Position numbers and translations under genes: made by a program. A DNA stretch of 36,472 nt from a virus, in the IMG/VR virus record IMGVR_UViG_3300037827_000273, positions 1 to 36,472 of that record. The stretch is one strand, 5' to 3'. The notes under the pieces were generated by a model, which did no database searches, was not told the origin of the DNA, and was given only the letters and a program-made list of their open reading frames with translations. Shown here piece by piece: positions 1 through 13,440 of the stretch; positions within the stretch are counted from its first letter, which is position 1, and each line of letters opens with the position of its first letter.

Positions 1-7
1 CTCCTTT

Positions 8-244
8 TCAAAACTTGTGGGGCTGCTGCTGCTGCTGGGTGGCCACCCGGTGTTGTTCTTCAATTCGTCCAGAGTCTTTAGAGGCGGAAACAAGTTCAGT
101 TAGGCGAGAGTTGAGAAGTTTGTGAACTACTTCCACTTTTTCGTTAACTTTCCTAACCCTAACAGCGGCAAGACCAGCAAAAATTGCAGAGATTACCGCA
201 GGTACTACCGACACAATAGCAAGTTGCACAGTCTCAGACAGCAT
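8..244 (-). CDS. Small membrane protein, holin-like
   Basis: This 78-aa protein has one N-terminal hydrophobic segment (about residues 6-28, rich in A, V, I and G). A charged helix follows with the run EVVHKLLNSRLTELV, a pattern I recognise from many small phage membrane proteins annotated as holins or holin-like. The tail is glutamine-rich (QQQQQ). The start is the ATG at 244, preceded by a strong purine-rich ribosome site (GGGGGGAGG about 10 bases upstream). A role in lysis is inferred from topology, size and position at the end of a minus-strand cluster. It could instead be a membrane protein of other function. The endolysin expected beside a holin would lie beyond the left edge. Confidence 0.5.
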   Translation of the reverse strand: MLSETVQLAIVSVVPAVISAIFAGLAAVRVRKVNEKVEVVHKLLNSRLTELVSASKDSGRIEEQHRVATQQQQQPHKF

Positions 245-303
245 TTTGCTGCCTCCCCCCCTCCAGCCAGTTCTCCAAATGGCAGAAGGTCTCTACTTAA
301 AGT

Positions 304-588
304 CTAACGGTCGAGTTGGTCACCAAAGTTACGAAGTTTACGTTTTTCTTCCCATTCGAGATTTGAGAGAAAAGGTTTAACGTAGATAAACACGTAACCC
401 ATGAGTTCGCAGTGGGTCCGGCCCCGCTGGGCGGCGGAGGCTAGGTCGCCTTTGTGCTCAAAGAGTTTAAAACAGGAAGTGTTGGAACCGTGACGATAGT
501 AGAGAGAGTATACAGAGCGGAGATCAACGGGCAGAAGAAGATCAGATTCTAGAGCTTTCTCTAATTTAGAAGAGGTCGAGGTTGTCAA
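304..588 (-). CDS. Hypothetical protein, 94 aa
   Basis: I do not recognise a family. The ATG at 588 overlaps the stop of the upstream gene as ATGA, so the two are probably translationally coupled. The N-terminal half is leucine-rich (DLLLPVDLRSVYSLYY) and the middle has two cysteines (near residues 39 and 60) without a clear metal-binding spacing. The C-terminus is a charged helix (LEWEEKRKLRNFGDQLDR). There is no convincing transmembrane segment or signal peptide. It lies between a terminase-small-subunit-like gene and a holin-like gene, which suggests a late role. Confidence 0.6.
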   Translation of the reverse strand: MTTSTSSKLEKALESDLLLPVDLRSVYSLYYRHGSNTSCFKLFEHKGDLASAAQRGRTHCELMGYVFIYVKPFLSNLEWEEKRKLRNFGDQLDR

Positions 589-902
589 GCTGGAAGCTCC
601 CGAGGAAGAAGAATTGGGTTTAGACCACCTTTGGAAAGAGGGTCATTGATAACAATGGTTATAGAGGGCAGGGGGGCGGCTTGGTCTTTCATAAGGCCAC
701 GAGCTTTTAGAGAAAGTTCAGCGGCCCGAAGCCTAACAACTTCGCTGCCGCCCCGTTGCATTAAACCTTCGACTACTTCTAAAGTGGGGTCGAGGCCAAG
801 TCCAGCGCGGTCCAGGGATTCAGGAACTCCAGACTGCGTCTGTTCTCCAAGAAGTCCACTTTCTCTAAGAGCGGCTGCTATTTCCGGTTTAAGTATAGGC
901 AT
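585..902 (-). CDS. Putative terminase small subunit-like protein
   Basis: The 105-aa product reads like short phage small-terminase proteins: an N-terminal segment, then LDRAGLGLDPTLEVVEGLM, a helix with EVVRLRAAELSLKARGL, and the C-terminal signature SITIVINDP followed by GGLNPILLPREL. In that family the small subunit recognises the pac/cos site and loads the large terminase ATPase-nuclease. I place the start at the ATG at 902, ten bases after the stop of the upstream gene. A longer in-frame extension to 1010 would run deep into that gene. No good ribosome site is visible. The large subunit is not in the window and may lie off the left edge. The family call is by recognition of sequence style only. 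Confidence 0.45.
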   Translation of the reverse strand: MPILKPEIAAALRESGLLGEQTQSGVPESLDRAGLGLDPTLEVVEGLMQRGGSEVVRLRAAELSLKARGLMKDQAAPLPSITIVINDPLSKGGLNPILLPRELPA

Positions 903-912
903 TAGAGGAAGG

Positions 913-1140
913 CTACCAGTCCCGGTCCCGATTTGCAGAATCGTAGGCTTCAAAAATTTCTTTAACCGTAAGTTTCCCCGGCAGGGGGCCTTGCCACCCG
1001 GCGGCCCCAAGTTCCTCTGTTTTTCTTTCTAGCTGGTTTCTAAAAAGAGAGTGAAGGGGAGACTCGGCAACTCTTTGCAGAGCGGCACAGAGTGCCGTAG
1101 CCTCTTCTTCACTCTTGGAGAAGTTTGAATCGTGGTTCAC
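913..1140 (-). CDS. Hypothetical protein, 75 aa
   Basis: A short soluble, acidic and helical protein without a family I recognise. The start is a GTG at 1140 with AGGA seven bases upstream. It is the first gene after the predicted promoter at 1164-1191 and is followed after ten bases by the terminase-small-subunit-like gene. It is therefore the probable leader gene of the leftward operon that continues past the left edge. Two parts are visible: a helical N-terminus (SEEEATALCAALQRVAE) and a C-terminal piece (KLTVKEIFEAYDSANRD). Confidence 0.55.
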   Translation of the reverse strand: MNHDSNFSKSEEEATALCAALQRVAESPLHSLFRNQLERKTEELGAAGWQGPLPGKLTVKEIFEAYDSANRDRDW

Positions 1141-1144
1141 AATT

Positions 1145-1160
1145 GGTCCTAGAGGATACC
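1145..1160 (-). promoter_or_regulatory. 5' stem-loop at predicted transcript start
   Basis: Read on the minus strand, GG(ta)TCC-tcta-GGACC forms a short hairpin. It begins within a few bases of the start predicted from the promoter at 1164-1191. It resembles the 5'-terminal hairpins seen at the other minus-strand promoters here. The stem is short and has a bulge, so the call is tentative. Confidence 0.3.
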
Positions 1161-1163
1161 ACT

Positions 1164-1191
1164 ATAATAAGGATAGAATCGGGGTTGTCAA
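1164..1191 (-). promoter_or_regulatory. Putative sigma70-like promoter
   Basis: The minus strand reads TTGACA (1191-1186), a 16-base spacer, then TATTAT (1169-1164). The -35 matches the consensus fully and the -10 at five of six positions. A second possible -10, TATAGT, lies three bases further with a 19-base spacer. It sits in the 72-base gap upstream of the gene at 913-1140 and would drive the leftward operon with the terminase-small-subunit-like and holin-like genes. Confidence 0.6.
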
Positions 1192-1212
1192 GAGGGCAAA
1201 GCAGGCTGGCTT

Positions 1213-1434
1213 TTAGTTTGTTTTCTTAGAGTTGGGGCCGAAGGTCCGAATGGCCCTAGACGTGCCGCGCCTCTGGACTCTAGCGAAACCCCTTTTAATA
1301 GTTGGATCTTTCAAAATCCTATCTTCTAGAGTCGCCCGCTGTTCTTTTTTCTTTTTTAGGTGAGCCTCGGAGTTCTCAAGTGTGTGCCCCCGAACGGCCA
1401 GGAGTTCCTTGATTTTGTCTCTAAGTTTACCCAT
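1213..1434 (-). CDS. Hypothetical basic protein, 73 aa
   Basis: A small, very basic protein: KLRDKIKELLAVRG at the N-terminus, a run of lysines (HLKKKKEQR), and an arginine-rich C-terminus ending in PNSKKTN. This composition suits nucleic-acid binding, but I recognise no family. The ATG at 1434 lies inside a 13-bp tandem duplication that also contains the stop of the upstream gene. The segment coding near residues 57-62 contains the 16-bp sequence found again at 3121-3136. Confidence 0.5.
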   Translation of the reverse strand: MGKLRDKIKELLAVRGHTLENSEAHLKKKKEQRATLEDRILKDPTIKRGFARVQRRGTSRAIRTFGPNSKKTN

Positions 1435-1455
1435 TAGCGGGGCCCATTAGCGGGG
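1430..1455. repeat. 13-bp tandem duplication over a stop/start junction
   Basis: CCCATTAGCGGGG occurs twice without a gap (1430-1442 and 1443-1455). On the minus strand each copy contains TAATG. The upstream copy gives the stop of the gene at 1447-1749 plus an ATG opening a six-codon reading frame. The downstream copy gives the ATG of the gene at 1213-1434. Confidence 0.9.
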
Positions 1456-1749
1456 CTTACTCAATTTCTTAAAAGAGTCAGCTAATTCCTGATCGAAAAT
1501 CGAGAGTTCGGGCGGTTCGTAAAGTCGGCCACGTTCGGCCCGCACTTCTCGGGCCTTCAGCACTCGGGGGCCTGGCGGCCGTCCAGCTTTTTCCCTGGCT
1601 TCTCTAGAAATCAGACTTTTTAAACCTGCTAGAAGTCGGCGGCGCTGGGCATTCGAAAGCCGCCAACCCAGGTTCTTCGTCGTGCCCCGGCCCCGGGCGG
1701 CCCAGCGAGTTAGCTTTTTTTTAAAGTTTTCGCAACCTTGTTTTACCAC
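1447..1749 (-). CDS. Hypothetical basic protein, about 100 aa
   Basis: An arginine- and lysine-rich helical protein (KKLTRWAARGRGTTKNLGWR, then QRRRLLAGLKSLISREAREK). I recognise no named family; a DNA-binding or small structural role is possible. The frame stays open up to an ATG at 1953. That upstream part runs through two hairpins, including the terminator at 1881-1926, and does not read like protein, so I prefer the GTG at 1749. No clear ribosome site supports either start. The end at 1447 is firm because it is coupled through TAATG to the next gene. Confidence 0.45.
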   Translation of the reverse strand: MVKQGCENFKKKLTRWAARGRGTTKNLGWRLSNAQRRRLLAGLKSLISREAREKAGRPPGPRVLKAREVRAERGRLYEPPELSIFDQELADSFKKLSKPR

Positions 1750-1770
1750 TTTGCAAAAGAAAGCTGCCGG
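1746..1770 (+). repeat. Inverted repeat copy A (partner at 2380-2404)
   Basis: This 25-bp stretch beginning CCACTTTGCAAAAG matches the reverse complement of 2380-2404 with three mismatches. Its first 14 bases are also an exact reverse complement of 2331-2344. Confidence 0.75.
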
Positions 1771-1836
1771 TTGTCCACTTGTTTTCGAGAGCCTCAAGGA
1801 GTCTGAGTGTGGGTCAAGAGGACTTTTGCATCCGGC

Positions 1837-1857
1837 CTCCCCACCCTTTTGGGGGAG
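1837..1857. other. GC-rich hairpin
   Basis: CTCCCC and GGGGAG (1837-1842 and 1852-1857) pair around a nine-base loop. No T-run follows on either strand, so it is not a typical intrinsic terminator. It lies in the leader between the terminator at 1881-1926 and the gene ending at 1447. Confidence 0.4.
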
Positions 1858-1880
1858 TGGTACCCTCCGAGAAAGCTTAG

Positions 1881-1926
1881 AAGTAATAAAGTTCCCTACC
1901 TCCACACGGCGGAGGAAGTAGGGAAC
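1881..1926 (-). terminator. Intrinsic terminator
   Basis: On the minus strand GTTCCCTAC and CTCC pair with GGAG and GTAGGGAAC (13 pairs, one three-base bulge, loop GCCGTGT). The stem is followed directly by the T-rich run TTTATTACTT. It begins 15 bases after the stop codon of the small gene at 1941-2111, where a terminator for that unit would be expected. Confidence 0.65.
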
Positions 1927-1940
1927 CCTACCTAGGCAAC

Positions 1941-2111
1941 TTAAAGAACACAAAGACTAGTTGGGATGCTATTCACAGCGTCCTGCCACGTCTCATATCC
2001 ATAACTCCACAAATCATCTGTAGGCCGCTCTCGTTCCTCAGGAGAGAAAACTAACCAAGGTTTAGATAGGCCTCTACAAGATTTGAAAACCAACCATTTA
2101 GTTTGCTTCAC
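1941..2111 (-). CDS. Hypothetical small protein, 56 aa
   Basis: The frame starts at a GTG (2111) with GAAAGG about nine bases upstream and ends in TAA at 1941. The product begins MKQTKWLVFKSC and ends NSIPTSLCVL. It is rich in tryptophan (KPWLVF, DLWSYGYETWQDAV), a composition that reads like a genuine small phage protein rather than chance. No family is recognised. It has its own predicted promoter (2235-2263), a structured leader (2135-2229) and a terminator (1881-1926), so it is likely expressed as a single-gene unit. Confidence 0.55.
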   Translation of the reverse strand: MKQTKWLVFKSCRGLSKPWLVFSPEERERPTDDLWSYGYETWQDAVNSIPTSLCVL

Positions 2112-2134
2112 AGTTCACAACCTTTCTAAAGGAC

Positions 2135-2229
2135 TGTAAGGCAGGGCCGGTCTCATCGAACCTCAAACTGGCCCACTTTCGTGAGTGTAAAGTTCACAGT
2201 TTCAACTACTGACGGTCGCCTGCCTTACA
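2135..2229 (-). ncRNA. Structured leader RNA candidate (four-helix fold)
   Basis: An 11-bp perfect inverted repeat (TGTAAGGCAGG, 2135-2145, with its complement at 2219-2229) encloses three hairpins. The first is 2146-2153 with 2165-2173 (one mismatch, one wobble); the second is CACT/AGTG at 2174-2187; the third is CAGT/ACTG with a seven-base loop at 2197-2211. On the minus strand the promoter at 2235-2263 is predicted to start transcription near 2228, the first base of the outer helix, and the ribosome site of the 56-aa gene follows the last base. I read it as a 5' leader or riboregulator. It is not a canonical tRNA and I recognise no known riboswitch. DNA-level symmetry alone cannot fix the strand. 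Confidence 0.35.
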
Positions 2230-2234
2230 TTACT

Positions 2235-2263
2235 ATAGTAGCCGCCGGGCAGAAAGTTCTCAA
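2235..2263 (-). promoter_or_regulatory. Putative sigma70-like promoter of the 56-aa gene unit
   Basis: The minus strand reads TTGAGA (2263-2258), a 17-base spacer and TACTAT (2240-2235). The -35 matches five of six bases and the -10 four of six. The predicted start (about 2228) coincides with the 5' strand of the long stem at 2135-2229. Confidence 0.4.
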
Positions 2264-2357
2264 CTAGGTTAGTTCCTAGACAAACTACCCAAGCTTAGTT
2301 TCATAAATGTAATTCCTTTCCCTAGGCCACCTTTTGCAAAGTGGACTAGAGCCGGAA
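2264..2357 (-). other. Intergenic segment with mini-ORF and hairpins
   Basis: Downstream of the 163-aa gene the minus strand holds three items. CCACTTT-GCAA-AAGGTGG (2344-2327) is a hairpin closed by a GNRA-type tetraloop. Next is an 11-codon frame (ATG at 2304, stop at 2269) with AAAGGA at good spacing. A CTAGG/CCTAG hairpin lies at 2264-2279, at the end of that frame. No T-run follows the first hairpin, so I do not call it a terminator. Whether the mini-ORF is translated is unknown. Confidence 0.35.
2331..2344 (-). repeat. 14-bp repeat copy (exact partner at 1746-1759)
   Basis: CTTTTGCAAAGTGG on the plus strand is the exact reverse complement of 1746-1759. It lies just after the stop of the 163-aa gene, in the hairpin described for that segment. 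Confidence 0.75.
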
Positions 2358-2849
2358 CTACTCGGCAGACTTCTGGGGTCCAGCAGCTTTTTTTTGCAAA
2401 GCGGTCAGAACCTGGGGCATCGAGCGAATGAGATCTTTGGCGGCCTGCTTGGCGGCAGTCTTTTTGTCCCGACCCTCCTGCGGGTTCTTCGGATCGGTCG
2501 TAATTTCGTCAAATCCAAAGTTCAACTTAGCAAACATGAGAACTACCGGGTTGACATCTTCGGGATTTGCCAGAGTTCCCGCAAAGGGAATTTCCGTCTC
2601 TTTTCCATCTTCAAAAACTTTCCAACCTTCGGGATTTTCGCGGGCGCTCCGGGTGGCCTCAGCTTGCAGGCCGTCCCGAAGGATAGTCAGTAGCTTCGCC
2701 TTGTCGTGGCCGAGTCTAGCCAGGGCGTCTTCCAGTGAATGCACTTCGGCGATCACGGGGACCCGCTTATATAAGGTCACGTCCTCGAAACTTGTCAAGT
2801 CGAGACCACTCTTGGTGGTTCGCAGTTCTGTTACAGCGTTTGGTGTCAC
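2358..2849 (-). CDS. Hypothetical protein, 163 aa
   Basis: I do not recognise this protein. It starts at GTG 2849 with AAAGGAG at good spacing inside a small hairpin loop, directly after the promoter at 2877-2905. It is soluble and helical: a central helix (LEDALARLGHDKAKLLTILR), a mixed middle (GWKVFEDGKETEIPFAG) and a lysine/alanine-rich C-terminus (DKKTAAKQAAKDLIRSMP). It is the first gene of the leftward direction, next to the origin-like region. This fits an early or regulatory protein as well as a structural one. Confidence 0.7.
   Translation of the reverse strand: MTPNAVTELRTTKSGLDLTSFEDVTLYKRVPVIAEVHSLEDALARLGHDKAKLLTILRDGLQAEATRSARENPEGWKVFEDGKETEIPFAGTLANPEDVNPVVLMFAKLNFGFDEITTDPKNPQEGRDKKTAAKQAAKDLIRSMPQVLTALQKKAAGPQKSAE
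2380..2404 (-). repeat. Inverted repeat copy B (partner at 1746-1770)
   Basis: The reverse complement matches 1746-1770 with three mismatches in 25. Here it lies within coding sequence for the C-terminal LQKKAAG of the 163-aa protein. Confidence 0.7.
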
Positions 2850-2854
2850 GTTTA

Positions 2855-2870
2855 AGAGCTCCTTTGCTCT
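2855..2870 (-). promoter_or_regulatory. 5' hairpin presenting the ribosome site in its loop
   Basis: The minus strand reads AGAGC-AAAGGA-GCTCT. The loop is the Shine-Dalgarno sequence of the gene starting at 2849, and the 5' base (2870) is where the promoter at 2877-2905 is predicted to start transcription. Confidence 0.45.
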
Positions 2871-2876
2871 ACTTCT

Positions 2877-2905
2877 AGTTTAGGTCTTTTCCCGATCGAA
2901 GTCAA
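2877..2905 (-). promoter_or_regulatory. Putative sigma70-like promoter, leftward
   Basis: The minus strand reads TTGACT (2905-2900), a 17-base spacer, then TAAACT (2882-2877). The -35 matches five of six bases and the -10 four of six. It faces left from the divergent intergenic region toward the 163-aa gene. Confidence 0.55.
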
Positions 2906-3120
2906 GCTTTTTTCAAGAAAAAGTCCAACTTTTTAAATTAGGGAACTTCTTAGGCCAAATGGACCCTGCCGGTCTATCCCAGAGGGCCTAAAAACAGCGG
3001 ATGGTCTAGGGATGATTGGGGATGATCCTGGGAGAATTCTGGGATGACACAGTATGAATTTTTCTTAATGTTTTGACCTACCTACCAGGGGTAACCCGTT
3101 GAGGGTGCAGGGGTTAGGTG

Positions 3121-3136
3121 ATGGCCCTAGACGTGC
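3121..3136 (+). repeat. 16-bp direct repeat (second copy at 1250-1265)
   Basis: ATGGCCCTAGACGTGC occurs here in noncoding DNA and identically at 1250-1265 inside the gene at 1213-1434. Here it is part of an imperfect palindrome, GGCC(c)TAG...CTAGGCC (3123-3143). Confidence 0.8.
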
Positions 3137-3255
3137 TCTAGGCCGGAGTAGCGAGAGAAAATTTAGGGGGGCAATACCATAAAAAGTATATATATATTAT
3201 GTAAGAATTACCGAACTATTCTCCTTAAGACTCAAGGGGTTAGGGAGGTACTACA

Positions 3256-3345
3256 AACTACTAGTACTGGTAGTTCGCTTTTTCTTCGTTTTGTACACTC
3301 TGAAAAGAGTGGGTCTAACCCCTCTCGAATCAAGGGGTTAGACCC
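3256..3345. other. Three consecutive hairpins
   Basis: In order: AACTAC/GTAGTT (3256-3261 with 3270-3275, 8-base loop); CACTCT-GAAA-AGAGTG (3296-3311, GNRA tetraloop); and a perfect 13-bp stem GGGTCTAACCCCT (3311-3323) with its complement at 3333-3345 and a 9-base loop. The last two share one base. They may form in RNA or serve as palindromic protein sites. The long stem includes the GGGGTTAG iteron on both strands. No T-run follows on the plus strand. Confidence 0.6.
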
Positions 3346-3493
3346 GGTAAAATTTACTTACAACAAGCCCACACCTACGCCTACCCAGAAAAAACTGAGC
3401 CACGCGAGAACAGACAGCGAAACCACACCTAAACCACTCACTCCAAACGACTTAACTCCCATTCAATCATCCCCTGTCGTCCTTAGATCCCCC

Positions 3494-3523
3494 TTGACAC
3501 GTCCCACTACGTCATGGTATCCT
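3494..3523 (+). promoter_or_regulatory. Putative sigma70-like promoter of the early operon
   Basis: TTGACA (3494-3499), an 18-base spacer and TATCCT (3518-3523). The -35 is perfect and the -10 matches four of six bases. Transcription would start near 3526-3530. There GCTGTGA and TCTCAGC (3526-3546) can form a stem with one mismatch, echoing the 5' hairpins of the leftward promoters. The ATG at 3514 lies inside this promoter, so both cannot be used as drawn. Confidence 0.5.
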
Positions 3524-3948
3524 TAGCTGTGATCGACCGTCTCAGCATAGTCAGACCTACCTACCACCGGTCCCCAAAGAAGCACCCAAACTTCAAAGAA
3601 TTTTCACAAATCAAGAAAGTTAAAAAGCCAGTCAAACCAGAAGAACTACCGACAGCTCCAGAGAGCACAAATGGAAAAGAAACAGAAGTGGAACGCCCGC
3701 AAGAAGCACCCAAACTTCAAACCCTACACAAAGCGCTCACCGATTGGACCGCCCGTGCCAACACGAGAGCCGAGAGAAAAAGAGCGAGAATTGCCACAGC
3801 AAGACTTGAGCAACTTTCAGGCTCTATTCGACCGCCAGCGGGAGAATTGGCCTCCAGCGGACCCAGCGGACCCTACGAAATCGAAACAGACCAACAGTTC
3901 AGAGAACGACTGAACCACCGTTTGCGGAATTTTGAGAAAGGAATTTAA
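3514..3948 (+). CDS. Hypothetical basic helical protein (start uncertain)
   Basis: First gene of the rightward operon. The C-terminal 86 residues look genuine: a helix LHKALTDWTARANTRAERKR, then a proline/glycine linker and a charged C-terminal helix (DQQFRERLNHRLRNFEKGI). The N-terminal part is low in structure. The first in-frame ATG (3514) has no ribosome site and lies inside the predicted promoter. Alternatives are GTG at 3529, which would be almost leaderless, or GTG at 3688. The sequence AAGAAGCACCCAAACTTCAAA occurs at 3578 and again at 3702 in a different frame, which suggests one copy arose by duplication and is not constrained as protein. No family recognised. Confidence 0.5.
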   Translation: MVSLAVIDRLSIVRPTYHRSPKKHPNFKEFSQIKKVKKPVKPEELPTAPESTNGKETEVERPQEAPKLQTLHKALTDWTARANTRAERKRARIATARLEQLSGSIRPPAGELASSGPSGPYEIETDQQFRERLNHRLRNFEKGI

Positions 3949-3953
3949 AAAAA

Positions 3954-4148
3954 TTGCCCTTCGTTAAACTTAGCAGCTTTGACTGCACGAACATCCTGAG
4001 ACTTTTTGAAGAGTTCGACGAATCGGAGCTTACCGATTCCGATCGCCGGACACGCGAAACTGTCCGCACTATTCAAGCCCTCCAAGAGTTGAAGCACACA
4101 GCAACTAAATCTACACTTAGAAAGGATACACTTAAAAATGGAAAATAG
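3954..4148 (+). CDS. Hypothetical protein, 64 aa
   Basis: Begins at a TTG (3954) with AAAGGA some 13 bases upstream and overlaps the next gene by 11 bases. The product is acidic in the middle (LRLFEEFDESELTDSD) and helical and basic toward the end (IQALQELKHTATKSTLRKD). No family recognised. The tight packing and overlap are typical of this operon and support the frame, while the TTG start makes the exact N-terminus uncertain. Confidence 0.5.
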   Translation: MPFVKLSSFDCTNILRLFEEFDESELTDSDRRTRETVRTIQALQELKHTATKSTLRKDTLKNGK

Positions 4149-4818
4149 CCAATCTCCCCTCTGTCGCTCCGGCCACCCGCTTGCCACTCCTGGTGGCTAC
4201 TGTCCCACTTGTGCAACTTGCTCACTTTGCAAAAGGCCACTTACCGCTACTGAGTATCACTGGACACTTGAGCACACACCTGAAAGCCAAGAGCCTACCT
4301 TTAGGCATCCCGGCTGTTTCTCGGAAATTGAACGCTTAACACTTGCAACCGAGGAAGTCTCAATTCCCCGCGCCCTGTTCGATAAACTCAATGCCTGCCG
4401 TTTGCTACTTGAGCCTTTAGAGGATCGCAACGTCAAGACAAATGAACAAGACGCAGATTTAAAAGTTCAGCGCTGGATTCACGAATCTGCCCAAACCAAA
4501 ACCTACGAAAAGCATTCTGAGTACCTCTACTTAGTTCTCCGGCGCATGGAAAGTGCGTGCGCCACTCTTAGCCTTGCAGTTTCTAAACAACGCCGAGTTA
4601 TCGAACAAGAACTAAGTGAGAAAGACAAACAAGCACATTTGGAAGCTCGGACCGCTGCTAAAGCCCACAGAGACTTAGCTCCCACAACCCACAAGAAAGT
4701 TGAGAAACGGAAACTAACTAAAGAGGAAAAGGCAGTGGCCGATCTGGTGGGTCTGGGGCTTTCAGAAGCGGATGCCCGCCAGTGCATCCAGAGAAACTCG
4801 AAAGGAACTGTGAACTAA
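4138..4818 (+). CDS. Hypothetical zinc-ribbon/coiled-coil protein, 226 aa
   Basis: The N-terminus is rich in paired cysteines and histidines (C9, H13, C22, C25, C28, C31, then H46 and H57 with C60), consistent with one or two zinc-binding knuckles. The remainder is mostly helical and charged, with a long lysine/alanine/glutamate helix around residues 150-200, ending in a small helical motif (EADARQCIQ). A DNA- or RNA-contacting role is plausible, but I recognise no named family. It starts at ATG 4138 inside the end of the previous gene. Confidence 0.65.
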   Translation: MENSQSPLCRSGHPLATPGGYCPTCATCSLCKRPLTATEYHWTLEHTPESQEPTFRHPGCFSEIERLTLATEEVSIPRALFDKLNACRLLLEPLEDRNVKTNEQDADLKVQRWIHESAQTKTYEKHSEYLYLVLRRMESACATLSLAVSKQRRVIEQELSEKDKQAHLEARTAAKAHRDLAPTTHKKVEKRKLTKEEKAVADLVGLGLSEADARQCIQRNSKGTVN

Positions 4819-4820
4819 TA

Positions 4821-5000
4821 ATGTTACATTTTGAATCTTTAGATGAACTTAAAACTACAATACCACAGTCAAGTGGACCATTCTGTTGTTTCGTCGATGG
4901 TTTCGGAGAAATTCAAGTAAACTCACATGAGGATATATTCGCAATAGCTGGAAAAATAGCTATGCGTTATAGCTATTTTTGGGAGTATACTAATGCCTAG
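4821..5000 (+). CDS. Hypothetical protein, 59 aa
   Basis: Begins at ATG 4821, two bases after the previous stop, and overlaps the helicase gene by eight bases. The product starts MLHFESLDELKTTIP and contains CCFVDGFGEIQVNSHEDIF, an alternating hydrophobic pattern suggesting a small beta-rich fold. No family recognised. An in-frame extension to 4782 would only run back into the previous gene, so the ATG is preferred. Confidence 0.6.
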   Translation: MLHFESLDELKTTIPQSSGPFCCFVDGFGEIQVNSHEDIFAIAGKIAMRYSYFWEYTNA

Positions 5001-6843
5001 ACTTCTCCAGCTTTGTCCCTCCTGCCAGCGGCCTCTGGAGTTAACCTCTGAGGAAACCTTCGGCTCTGAAATCCTCCAGTCTTTCAAATGTGGCCACTCT
5101 TTTGTAAAGTCTAAGTTAGAAGCTTCAGACCCAAACGCACTAGACTTCCTGAGTGTAGACGGCTCCAAACAGGCGCGTGAGTACCAAAAGACTGGAGTCC
5201 AATTCATCTTAGATTCTGACTTCGCTTGTGTTATTGGCGATCAGATGCGATTAGGTAAGACTCCCCAGAGCTTACTAGCTCTCAAGAATGCTTTTCGGCT
5301 CGGTCTAAAGAGCAAAGCTCTAGTCCTTGTCCGCGCGGCCAACATCTGGCAGTGGGTCAAAGAGTGCCACACTTGGGTAGATAACAAACCCAATTGTGTA
5401 TGGGTTTGCCAAGGTACCTCAGCTTGGATACCTCCCGGCTTTAGCATTTATCTAATGTCAATGGACACTTTCGGCCGCCACGGAGCCTGCGAACAAGCCG
5501 ATTGCAGGAATGGTAAGAAAGGCCATCCTTATCATGAAGAGGAGTGCAAGAAAACCGGCTGCAACTGCCAAGTTTGGAAAGGTAAGGCGCTTTCCGACGA
5601 ACTTCTAACAATGGGATTTGATGTAGTTGTAGTTGATGAAGCTCACAGCTTCAAGAACACTGGCTCCCAGCGGTCCAAATCCCTAACAGCTTTCCTCAAA
5701 AATATCGAGAGAAGTGAACTAGAGCAAGAACTAGACTTTACCTGTCCGTTCTGTAAGGCTAAAGGCACTGAAACTAAGTGGACGGACAAAGTTACAATTA
5801 AAATCGATGGAACTGAAGCAACCCAGAGAGTCTCAAAGACTTCCCACTGCCCCGCTTGTTTTGGACAAGTTCAGCAATCCGCCGCTGCCCACCTGAAAGT
5901 TTCCCGAAAGTGCGGCATTGTCATGCTAAGTGGAACTCTCATTGAGAACAACGCCGAGGAAAACTTTGTCCCTCTGAATTTGATAGACCCACAGCGATTC
6001 CCCTCCAAGGCACACTTCCAAAACCGCTGGCTAGACTACAGCGGCAAACGAATCAAACATTGGGAATTAGAGAACTTCCGCAAGGAAATAGCCCCCTACG
6101 TCTTACGACGTGTAAAGGAGGATGTCTATACCGATCTCCCAGAGCTAAATCGGCTATTCACAGTTATTGAAATAGAGGATGAGGCACTTAGAAAAGCCTA
6201 CAACAAAGTTCTAGACCGAATCGAAGCTTCCGCAGGACCCTCGGGCAGCTACTCCTTCTTTTCAAACATTGGAGAACTCCAACAACTTAGACAAATTTGT
6301 GGCCTTGCTAAAGTTAACTGGGTCTCTGACTACGCTGAGGAACTTCTGGCGGAAAGCGAGACAGGGAAACTAGCAATTGGAATTCACCACCACTCGGTTA
6401 GAGACAGACTAACTACAAACCTTGCCGCCTACAACCCTCTAGTTCTCAGTGGTGAGGACAACTCCACTCAGAAGTACCAAACGATGCAAAGGTTCAATAG
6501 TGACCCAAAGGCCCGTATCCTAATAGTGAACATGCTCGCTGGCGGTGTTGGCCTAGATCTCCACGAATGTGACAACGTTCTAGTTGTAGAACGGCAGTGG
6601 AACCGGGAAAAAGAGAAGCAATTCGAGTTCCGCTTCTACAATCCTGACAAAGGAATAAAAGAAAGACCAACAAACGTGGAGTACGTTCTAGCTGATAAAA
6701 CAGTGGACAAGTTCTTTCATGCTATGGGGATTGAAAAGGAAGCAAACGTGAATCCGCTTCTCTATGAAAAGACTTGGGAACTTGAGTCCGATCCCCGCAG
6801 TTTTCAACAACTGATGGAGGCCACCTGCGGATCGAGACTCTAG
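4993..6843 (+). CDS. SNF2-type superfamily 2 helicase with zinc-binding insertions
   Basis: A 616-aa ATP-dependent DNA translocase/helicase of the SNF2/DEAD-like class. Visible motifs: Walker A GDQMRLGKT (82-90; the usual form is GDEMGLGKT), motif II DEAH (215-218), motif III SGT (313-315), motif V MLAGGVGLDL (513-522) and motif VI around ERQWNREKEKQFEFR (533-547), where the usual QAxxRxxRxGQ is altered. Cysteine clusters occur at the N-terminus (C8, C11, C33, H35), in an insertion before motif II (C166, C171, C185, C190, C192), and between motifs II and III (C251, C254, C286, C289). Related phage proteins are thought to help replication, recombination or transcription remodelling; which applies here is not shown. 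It is the first large enzyme of the early operon. Confidence 0.9.
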   Translation: MPRLLQLCPSCQRPLELTSEETFGSEILQSFKCGHSFVKSKLEASDPNALDFLSVDGSKQAREYQKTGVQFILDSDFACVIGDQMRLGKTPQSLLALKNAFRLGLKSKALVLVRAANIWQWVKECHTWVDNKPNCVWVCQGTSAWIPPGFSIYLMSMDTFGRHGACEQADCRNGKKGHPYHEEECKKTGCNCQVWKGKALSDELLTMGFDVVVVDEAHSFKNTGSQRSKSLTAFLKNIERSELEQELDFTCPFCKAKGTETKWTDKVTIKIDGTEATQRVSKTSHCPACFGQVQQSAAAHLKVSRKCGIVMLSGTLIENNAEENFVPLNLIDPQRFPSKAHFQNRWLDYSGKRIKHWELENFRKEIAPYVLRRVKEDVYTDLPELNRLFTVIEIEDEALRKAYNKVLDRIEASAGPSGSYSFFSNIGELQQLRQICGLAKVNWVSDYAEELLAESETGKLAIGIHHHSVRDRLTTNLAAYNPLVLSGEDNSTQKYQTMQRFNSDPKARILIVNMLAGGVGLDLHECDNVLVVERQWNREKEKQFEFRFYNPDKGIKERPTNVEYVLADKTVDKFFHAMGIEKEANVNPLLYEKTWELESDPRSFQQLMEATCGSRL

Positions 6844-9772: not shown

Positions 9773-10064
9773 AAGTTTGAATCACGTTCATACCTACGTC
9801 CGCTGGAAACCCGCCTTTGGCGAAATGCACTACCGCTGCGATCATCCAGATTGTATGCACCACGCCCCCACAAGTCTCTTAAGGGGTAAGAAGTCAATCT
9901 GTGCAGTTTGCAAGGAAAAAGAACTAATTCTAAAAAGTTCAGACTTCAAACTTGCCCGCCCCCGCTGTGAGGACTGCTCAGAAACTGCGGAAGCTGTGGC
10001 TCGTCGAGAGTTCGCAGCTATTGCACATCAATTTGTGACAGACCCAGAGGAGGACCAGCAGTGA
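9765..10064 (+). CDS. Zinc-ribbon protein, 99 aa
   Basis: Contains HYRCDHPDCMHH, SICAVCKEKE and RPRCEDCSE, that is three Cys pairs with histidines, an arrangement expected to bind zinc. Similar short phage proteins that begin with a His-x-His/Trp pattern and an RCxxPxC knuckle are common. Their role is unknown; recognising a host factor or nucleic acid is possible. The end overlaps the next GTG start. Confidence 0.65.
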   Translation: MSKSLNHVHTYVRWKPAFGEMHYRCDHPDCMHHAPTSLLRGKKSICAVCKEKELILKSSDFKLARPRCEDCSETAEAVARREFAAIAHQFVTDPEEDQQ

Positions 10065-11375: not shown

Positions 11376-11579
11376 ATGCCATCTGACGCCTCTCTTGAAG
11401 AAATTAAAGAAAATGCACTTAAGATCCTTAGTGAAAAAGGCTTCGACGGAATGGATGAAGCAGTGGCTTACATGATAAAAAATTGGAAGATGAATGAAAT
11501 CCTTATGGATATTGGAATTTTAAGAGTTGAAAACTTGGATTTAATTGGCGTAACTGAGTGGATTAAAGGATTTAAATAG
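11376..11579 (+). CDS. Hypothetical protein, 67 aa
   Basis: A soluble helical protein (SLEEIKENALKILSEKGFDG, EAVAYMIKNWKMNEILMDIG) ending directly before the Sak4-like ATPase gene. Its opening MPSDAS resembles the MPSAAS opening of that next gene, perhaps by local duplication of the start region. No family recognised. Confidence 0.55.
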   Translation: MPSDASLEEIKENALKILSEKGFDGMDEAVAYMIKNWKMNEILMDIGILRVENLDLIGVTEWIKGFK

Positions 11580-13153: not shown

Positions 13154-13440
13154 TATATGATCTAGATGAATCACACAACCCGGTGCCAACTACAGATTTT
13201 AAGTGTTTCAATAAAAACCACGTTGTAAAAAAAGAATTAGTAGGTAGCTCGGAAGTTTCTACTGTTTTTCTCTGTATAGATCATAACTATGGTAGAATCG
13301 GACCGCCACTTTTATTTGAAACAATGGTCTTTGGGCCGTTAGACCCCGAAAATGAAATTCAAGAACGATGCTCTACTTGGGATGAAGCTTTAGAGCAACA
13401 TCAAAGAATTGTAGATAAATTAAAGGTAAAATTAAATTGA
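13150..13440 (+). CDS. Conserved phage protein of unknown function, 96 aa
   Basis: I recognise the pattern VSTVFLCIDHNYGRIGPP followed by LFETMVFG and a C-terminal STWDEALEQHQRIV. It occurs in many short phage and prophage proteins of unknown function. The N-terminus (MIYDLDESHNPVP) also fits. The ATG at 13150 is coupled to the previous gene as ATGA and the stop is coupled to the polymerase as TTGA. Confidence 0.65.
   Translation: MIYDLDESHNPVPTTDFKCFNKNHVVKKELVGSSEVSTVFLCIDHNYGRIGPPLLFETMVFGPLDPENEIQERCSTWDEALEQHQRIVDKLKVKLN

Follow-up and report, generated by a model that had tools for sequence, protein, structure and literature searches.

A predicted promoter, hairpin leader, small gene and terminator within a variable region of a tailed phage genome

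The 36,472-nt sequence analyzed here (the window) comes from an uncultivated phage and carries on its minus strand a compact unit whose parts follow one another in the order promoter, 11 bp inverted repeat, SD-like site, GTG ORF and terminator. This unit exists as sequence and is probably a real small gene, and we give about an even chance to its being a moron-like accessory cassette in a variable slot, whose base-paired 5′ end stabilizes its mRNA. The collections searched yielded only one relative, IMGVR_UViG_3300039766_000002 (a viral contig of 22,083 bases with an 85% identical capsid protein), and the whole unit is missing from it while the flanking genes are kept, in agreement with the initial annotation, which had described a self-contained unit. 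The individual parts are weak when taken one by one, but they are less easily dismissed jointly.

Layout, predicted start and small ORF

All of the parts previously listed (promoter, 11 bp helix, ribosome site, 56-aa ORF and terminator) were found in the sequence. A promoter scan places a sigma70-like promoter, TTGAGA-17-TACTAT, at 2263–2235; it is followed by a 95 nt 5′ leader hairpin (2135–2229, from the fold prediction and the inverted repeat), an SD-like AGAAAGG (2127–2121) that lies 9 nt upstream of the GTG, the 56-aa ORF with its four tryptophans (2111–1941), and an intrinsic terminator (1881–1926) with a 13 bp stem (1914–1926 paired with 1891–1903, including one G-U), a 10 nt loop and a TTTATTACTT tail. 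The unit lies within a slot (1213–2357, minus strand) between conserved 163-aa and 75-aa genes, the contents of which have no homology in the relative. Upstream, the 163-aa gene ends with its stop at 2358, and an intergenic hairpin lacking a U-tract (2351–2321, minus strand) adjoins its 3′ end.

If the unit is a cassette, that is, one small gene with its own promoter, structured leader and terminator in a variable slot of a ∼40 kb tailed phage, then transcription would start at about 2228 and the first base of the RNA would already be paired in the 11 bp stem. In this state the leader hairpin would protect the 5′ end against 5′-end-dependent decay (by RppH with RNase E, or by RNase J), ribosomes would load just 3′ of the hairpin to make a 56-aa protein of presumably accessory role and some benefit to the phage, and the terminator would end a transcript predicted to be roughly 340 nt long.

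The promoter at 2263 scores only 9 of 12, and promoter-like matches in positions 1–6000 occur at the level expected by chance (four found, 3.3 expected). A second possible −10 sequence, TATAGT (2237–2232), would shift the start by about 3 nt. The inverted repeat that follows is perfect over 11 bp (arms 2229–2219 and 2145–2135, minus strand) and is among only four exact inverted repeats of at least 10 bp with a spacer of at most 100 in the window, where ten 10 bp seed pairs of exact inverted repeats were seen and about four are expected from shuffles of the window. The window contains 36 promoter-like matches, and the one at 2263 alone has its predicted +1 within 3 nt of the start of an exact helix measuring at least 8 bp; the helix here is 11 bp, and the stem begins at or within one or two bases of the predicted 5′ end. 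This coincidence of promoter, helix and predicted start, which the other 35 matches lack, argues for the cassette, as does the combination of a stable unbranched 5′ hairpin with a ribosome site outside it.

The low promoter score argues in the opposite direction, and the 2263 promoter has no counterpart at the same place in the relative. By comparison, the minus-strand promoters at 1191–1164 and 2905–2877, upstream of the 75-aa and 163-aa genes, respectively, are probably real, as judged by the matching promoters that occupy the same places in the relative (G001 11528–11556 and 9803–9832). The leader hairpin might be a processing site or a decay barrier (for example, for RNase III) within a read-through mRNA from the 2905–2877 promoter, the match at 2263 being due to chance. 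That the upstream promoter is the one matched in the relative favors this explanation, and so do the hairpins without U-tracts that lie 3′ of the 163-aa gene in both phages; it would nevertheless leave the agreement between the predicted +1 and the first bases of the helix to accident, and we consider it unlikely.

The ORF is equivocal as a coding sequence. Its codon score is borderline (p about 0.02 against random ORFs of the same composition) and falls between those of false and true gene segments, and this too weighs against the cassette. The 56-aa protein had no significant match in IMG/VR, phage records or PDB sequences, nor in Pfam, PHROGs, NCBIfam or PADLOC, and an AlphaFold model of it alone, with a mean pLDDT of 54.6, was set aside.

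The variable slot and its counterpart in the relative

Relatives were sought in IMG/VR with three proteins (capsid, 163-aa protein and exonuclease), and every query returned the same single contig; scans of reference genomes with the capsid and annealing proteins found no relatives. This contig is collinear with the window, with a partner of the 163-aa gene (46% identical) and with the 75-aa and 141-aa genes retained. The two slots differ little in length (about 1.15 kb here, against 1.16 kb in the relative), but there is no recognizable homology between their proteins, and the relative holds different small genes. The promoter, leader and ORF of the unit are all missing there; this absence between collinear flanking genes is a further argument for a cassette. 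Where the window has the unit, the relative shows a long hairpin (−34.2 kcal/mol) directly 3′ of its 163-aa gene; after it come an AGGAG site, a 49-aa ORF that includes three tryptophans, and a further hairpin. The long hairpin is unrelated to the leader of the window, but the analogous arrangement of hairpin, SD site, small tryptophan-containing ORF and hairpin also favors the cassette interpretation. There is no promoter match upstream of the relative's small ORF, so independent transcription is not a feature common to both slots, and this point counts against a cassette. Within the variable slot the two phages share a single DNA element, a hairpin past the unit that is formed by a C-run and a G-run (CCACTCCCCC-loop-GGGTGGGG; about 1836–1865 in the window and 722–754 of L002 in the relative).

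Positions 1745–1770, which the unit separates from the 163-aa gene, are an inverted copy of 2405–2380 at the end of that gene; 23 of 26 positions match, and the best result in 60 shuffles was 20 of 26. The relative has a counterpart to this gene end, so the copy at 1745–1770 is probably the derived one. Its origin may lie in a local duplication and inversion during rearrangement of the slot, or it may instead be a repeated site for a putative binding protein. The window holds six copies of the core CTTTGCAAA, four of which lie between 1.7 and 4.3 kb, and a motif around CCACTTTGCAAAAG is repeated at 1745–1770, 2331–2344, 2380–2405 and 4222–4235, two of these being further near copies.

Could the unit then be nothing but a chance hairpin and degenerate, functionless sequence in a decaying, rearranged slot, with an ORF that is possibly untranslated? 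Each single part is near chance, the codon score is borderline, no homologues were found, and the inverted copy of the neighboring gene's end indicates recent rearrangement. Against this stand the correct order and spacing of the parts and the coincidence of a helix with the predicted start of a promoter, and we regard this explanation as improbable, a shade more so than read-through. A much bolder proposal is that the whole slot is a cassette site at which phages of this lineage swap small genes, each led by its own hairpin, with the inverted copies at 1745–1770 and 2380–2405 as possible traces of arrival and the leader as an undescribed phage RNA class defined by its architecture and not by its sequence; we think this very doubtful. 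Most likely the unit is a small gene of an ordinary kind. If the cassette interpretation is right, it adds one more small unannotated accessory gene to those of phages, and it would gain interest only if more relatives showed the layout of hairpin plus small gene with changing contents.

Several other features of the window deserve mention. Between the leftward and rightward genes lies ∼600 nt of non-coding, repeat-rich DNA (2877–3514) that holds a perfect 13 bp inverted repeat (3311–3323 with 3333–3345) and an AT-rich palindrome (3180–3203); it is possibly an origin or control region. A single ORF at 13437–15893 matches a uracil-DNA glycosylase domain and then a 3′-5′ exonuclease and family A DNA polymerase. 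Neither the terminase nor the N-terminal part of a portal-like gene is present in the window, and the relative has both between its versions of the genes at the window ends (1 and 36472); the record seems to be a permuted genome with a few kb missing.

Predicted fold of the leader

The 93 nt leader sequence has a predicted fold of −36.4 kcal/mol (z = −3.56), which was equaled by one of 200 dinucleotide shuffles, and z values of −3.3 or lower were reached in 37 of 4852 tiles of the window. The minimum-energy structure is a single long hairpin without branches, capped by a GAAA loop and interrupted by several internal loops. It had been proposed that the leader folds into a four-way junction; the best forced cloverleaf with three local hairpins is about 6 kcal/mol worse (−30.3 against −36.4), and when 2000 structures were sampled, 1986 (99%) contained a single hairpin loop. 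The accompanying idea that the leader could hide or expose the ribosome site fares no better, as that site falls outside the hairpin and its predicted openness is equal with and without the leader. With the unbranched fold favored and the ribosome site unaffected, no junction switch is predicted, and these thermodynamic calculations do not support toggling of that site by a four-way junction. If this reading is right, it offers a caution that several local helices drawn by eye can turn out to be one plain hairpin.

The initial annotation recognized no known riboswitch or tRNA in the leader, and this was borne out: no Rfam family scored above its curated threshold, nothing credible appeared at a permissive threshold, and ARAGORN found no tRNA or tmRNA in the window. 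The ARAGORN result and the disfavored cloverleaf fold led us to reject a tRNA-like leader. No second copy of the leader that might show compensatory changes was found in the collections searched; its DNA had no match in phages or plasmids, an internal 25-mer found nothing, and a covariance model based solely on the leader had no match in the relative. The sole IMG/VR match to the outer-helix pattern, contig L007, scored 12.5 bits (E = 2.5) with an unalignable interior and an unrelated neighborhood, and is a probable chance match.

These results bear most directly on the view, taken initially, of the leader as a riboswitch-like or protein-bound regulatory RNA that acts in cis and controls the small gene through a change of shape. 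Its fold is strong for its composition, alternative local hairpins can be drawn, and it lies directly upstream of the ribosome site; yet the cost of branching, the unchanged accessibility of that site, the lack of an Rfam match and the absence of the leader from the relative make such control quite improbable. Least probable of all is a short, structured non-coding RNA as the product, with the ORF incidental. The short distance from promoter to terminator, the strong 5′ fold and the weak coding signal would fit, but the SD is correctly spaced, the ORF fills most of the RNA past the leader, and no other copy of the RNA was found.

Comparison with known systems

The unit resembles riboswitches and other structured leaders in having a structured RNA upstream of an ORF, but it matches no known family, is predicted neither to form a junction nor to switch the ribosome site, and is not conserved in the relative.

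The phage genes called morons are independently transcribed accessory genes (PMC2147016, PMC6469090) that were acquired singly and often have their own promoters and terminators (PMC2147016). Like them, the unit is a single small gene with its own predicted promoter and terminator between conserved phage genes, and it is missing from a relative that keeps those genes. It differs in that other small genes fill the relative's slot, and no sign of lysogeny was seen. Morons are acquired horizontally and often differ in composition; the GC content of the unit (0.46) is close to that of the window (0.45), no homologue was found elsewhere, and a foreign origin would be putative. No integrase was found among the proteins scanned; the phage may therefore be lytic, and the prophage expression that is typical of many morons may not apply here.

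Hairpins at the 5′ end are known to impede 5′-end conversion by RppH and can stabilize mRNAs in Escherichia coli and Bacillus, and 5′-terminal stem-loops of the ompA and papA type stabilize mRNA (reviewed in PMC3997798). The hairpin of the unit is longer than these (95 nt), has several internal loops and follows a 5′ end that is predicted only, but it shares with them a ribosome site outside the stem and a strong stem that begins no more than one or two bases from that 5′ end.
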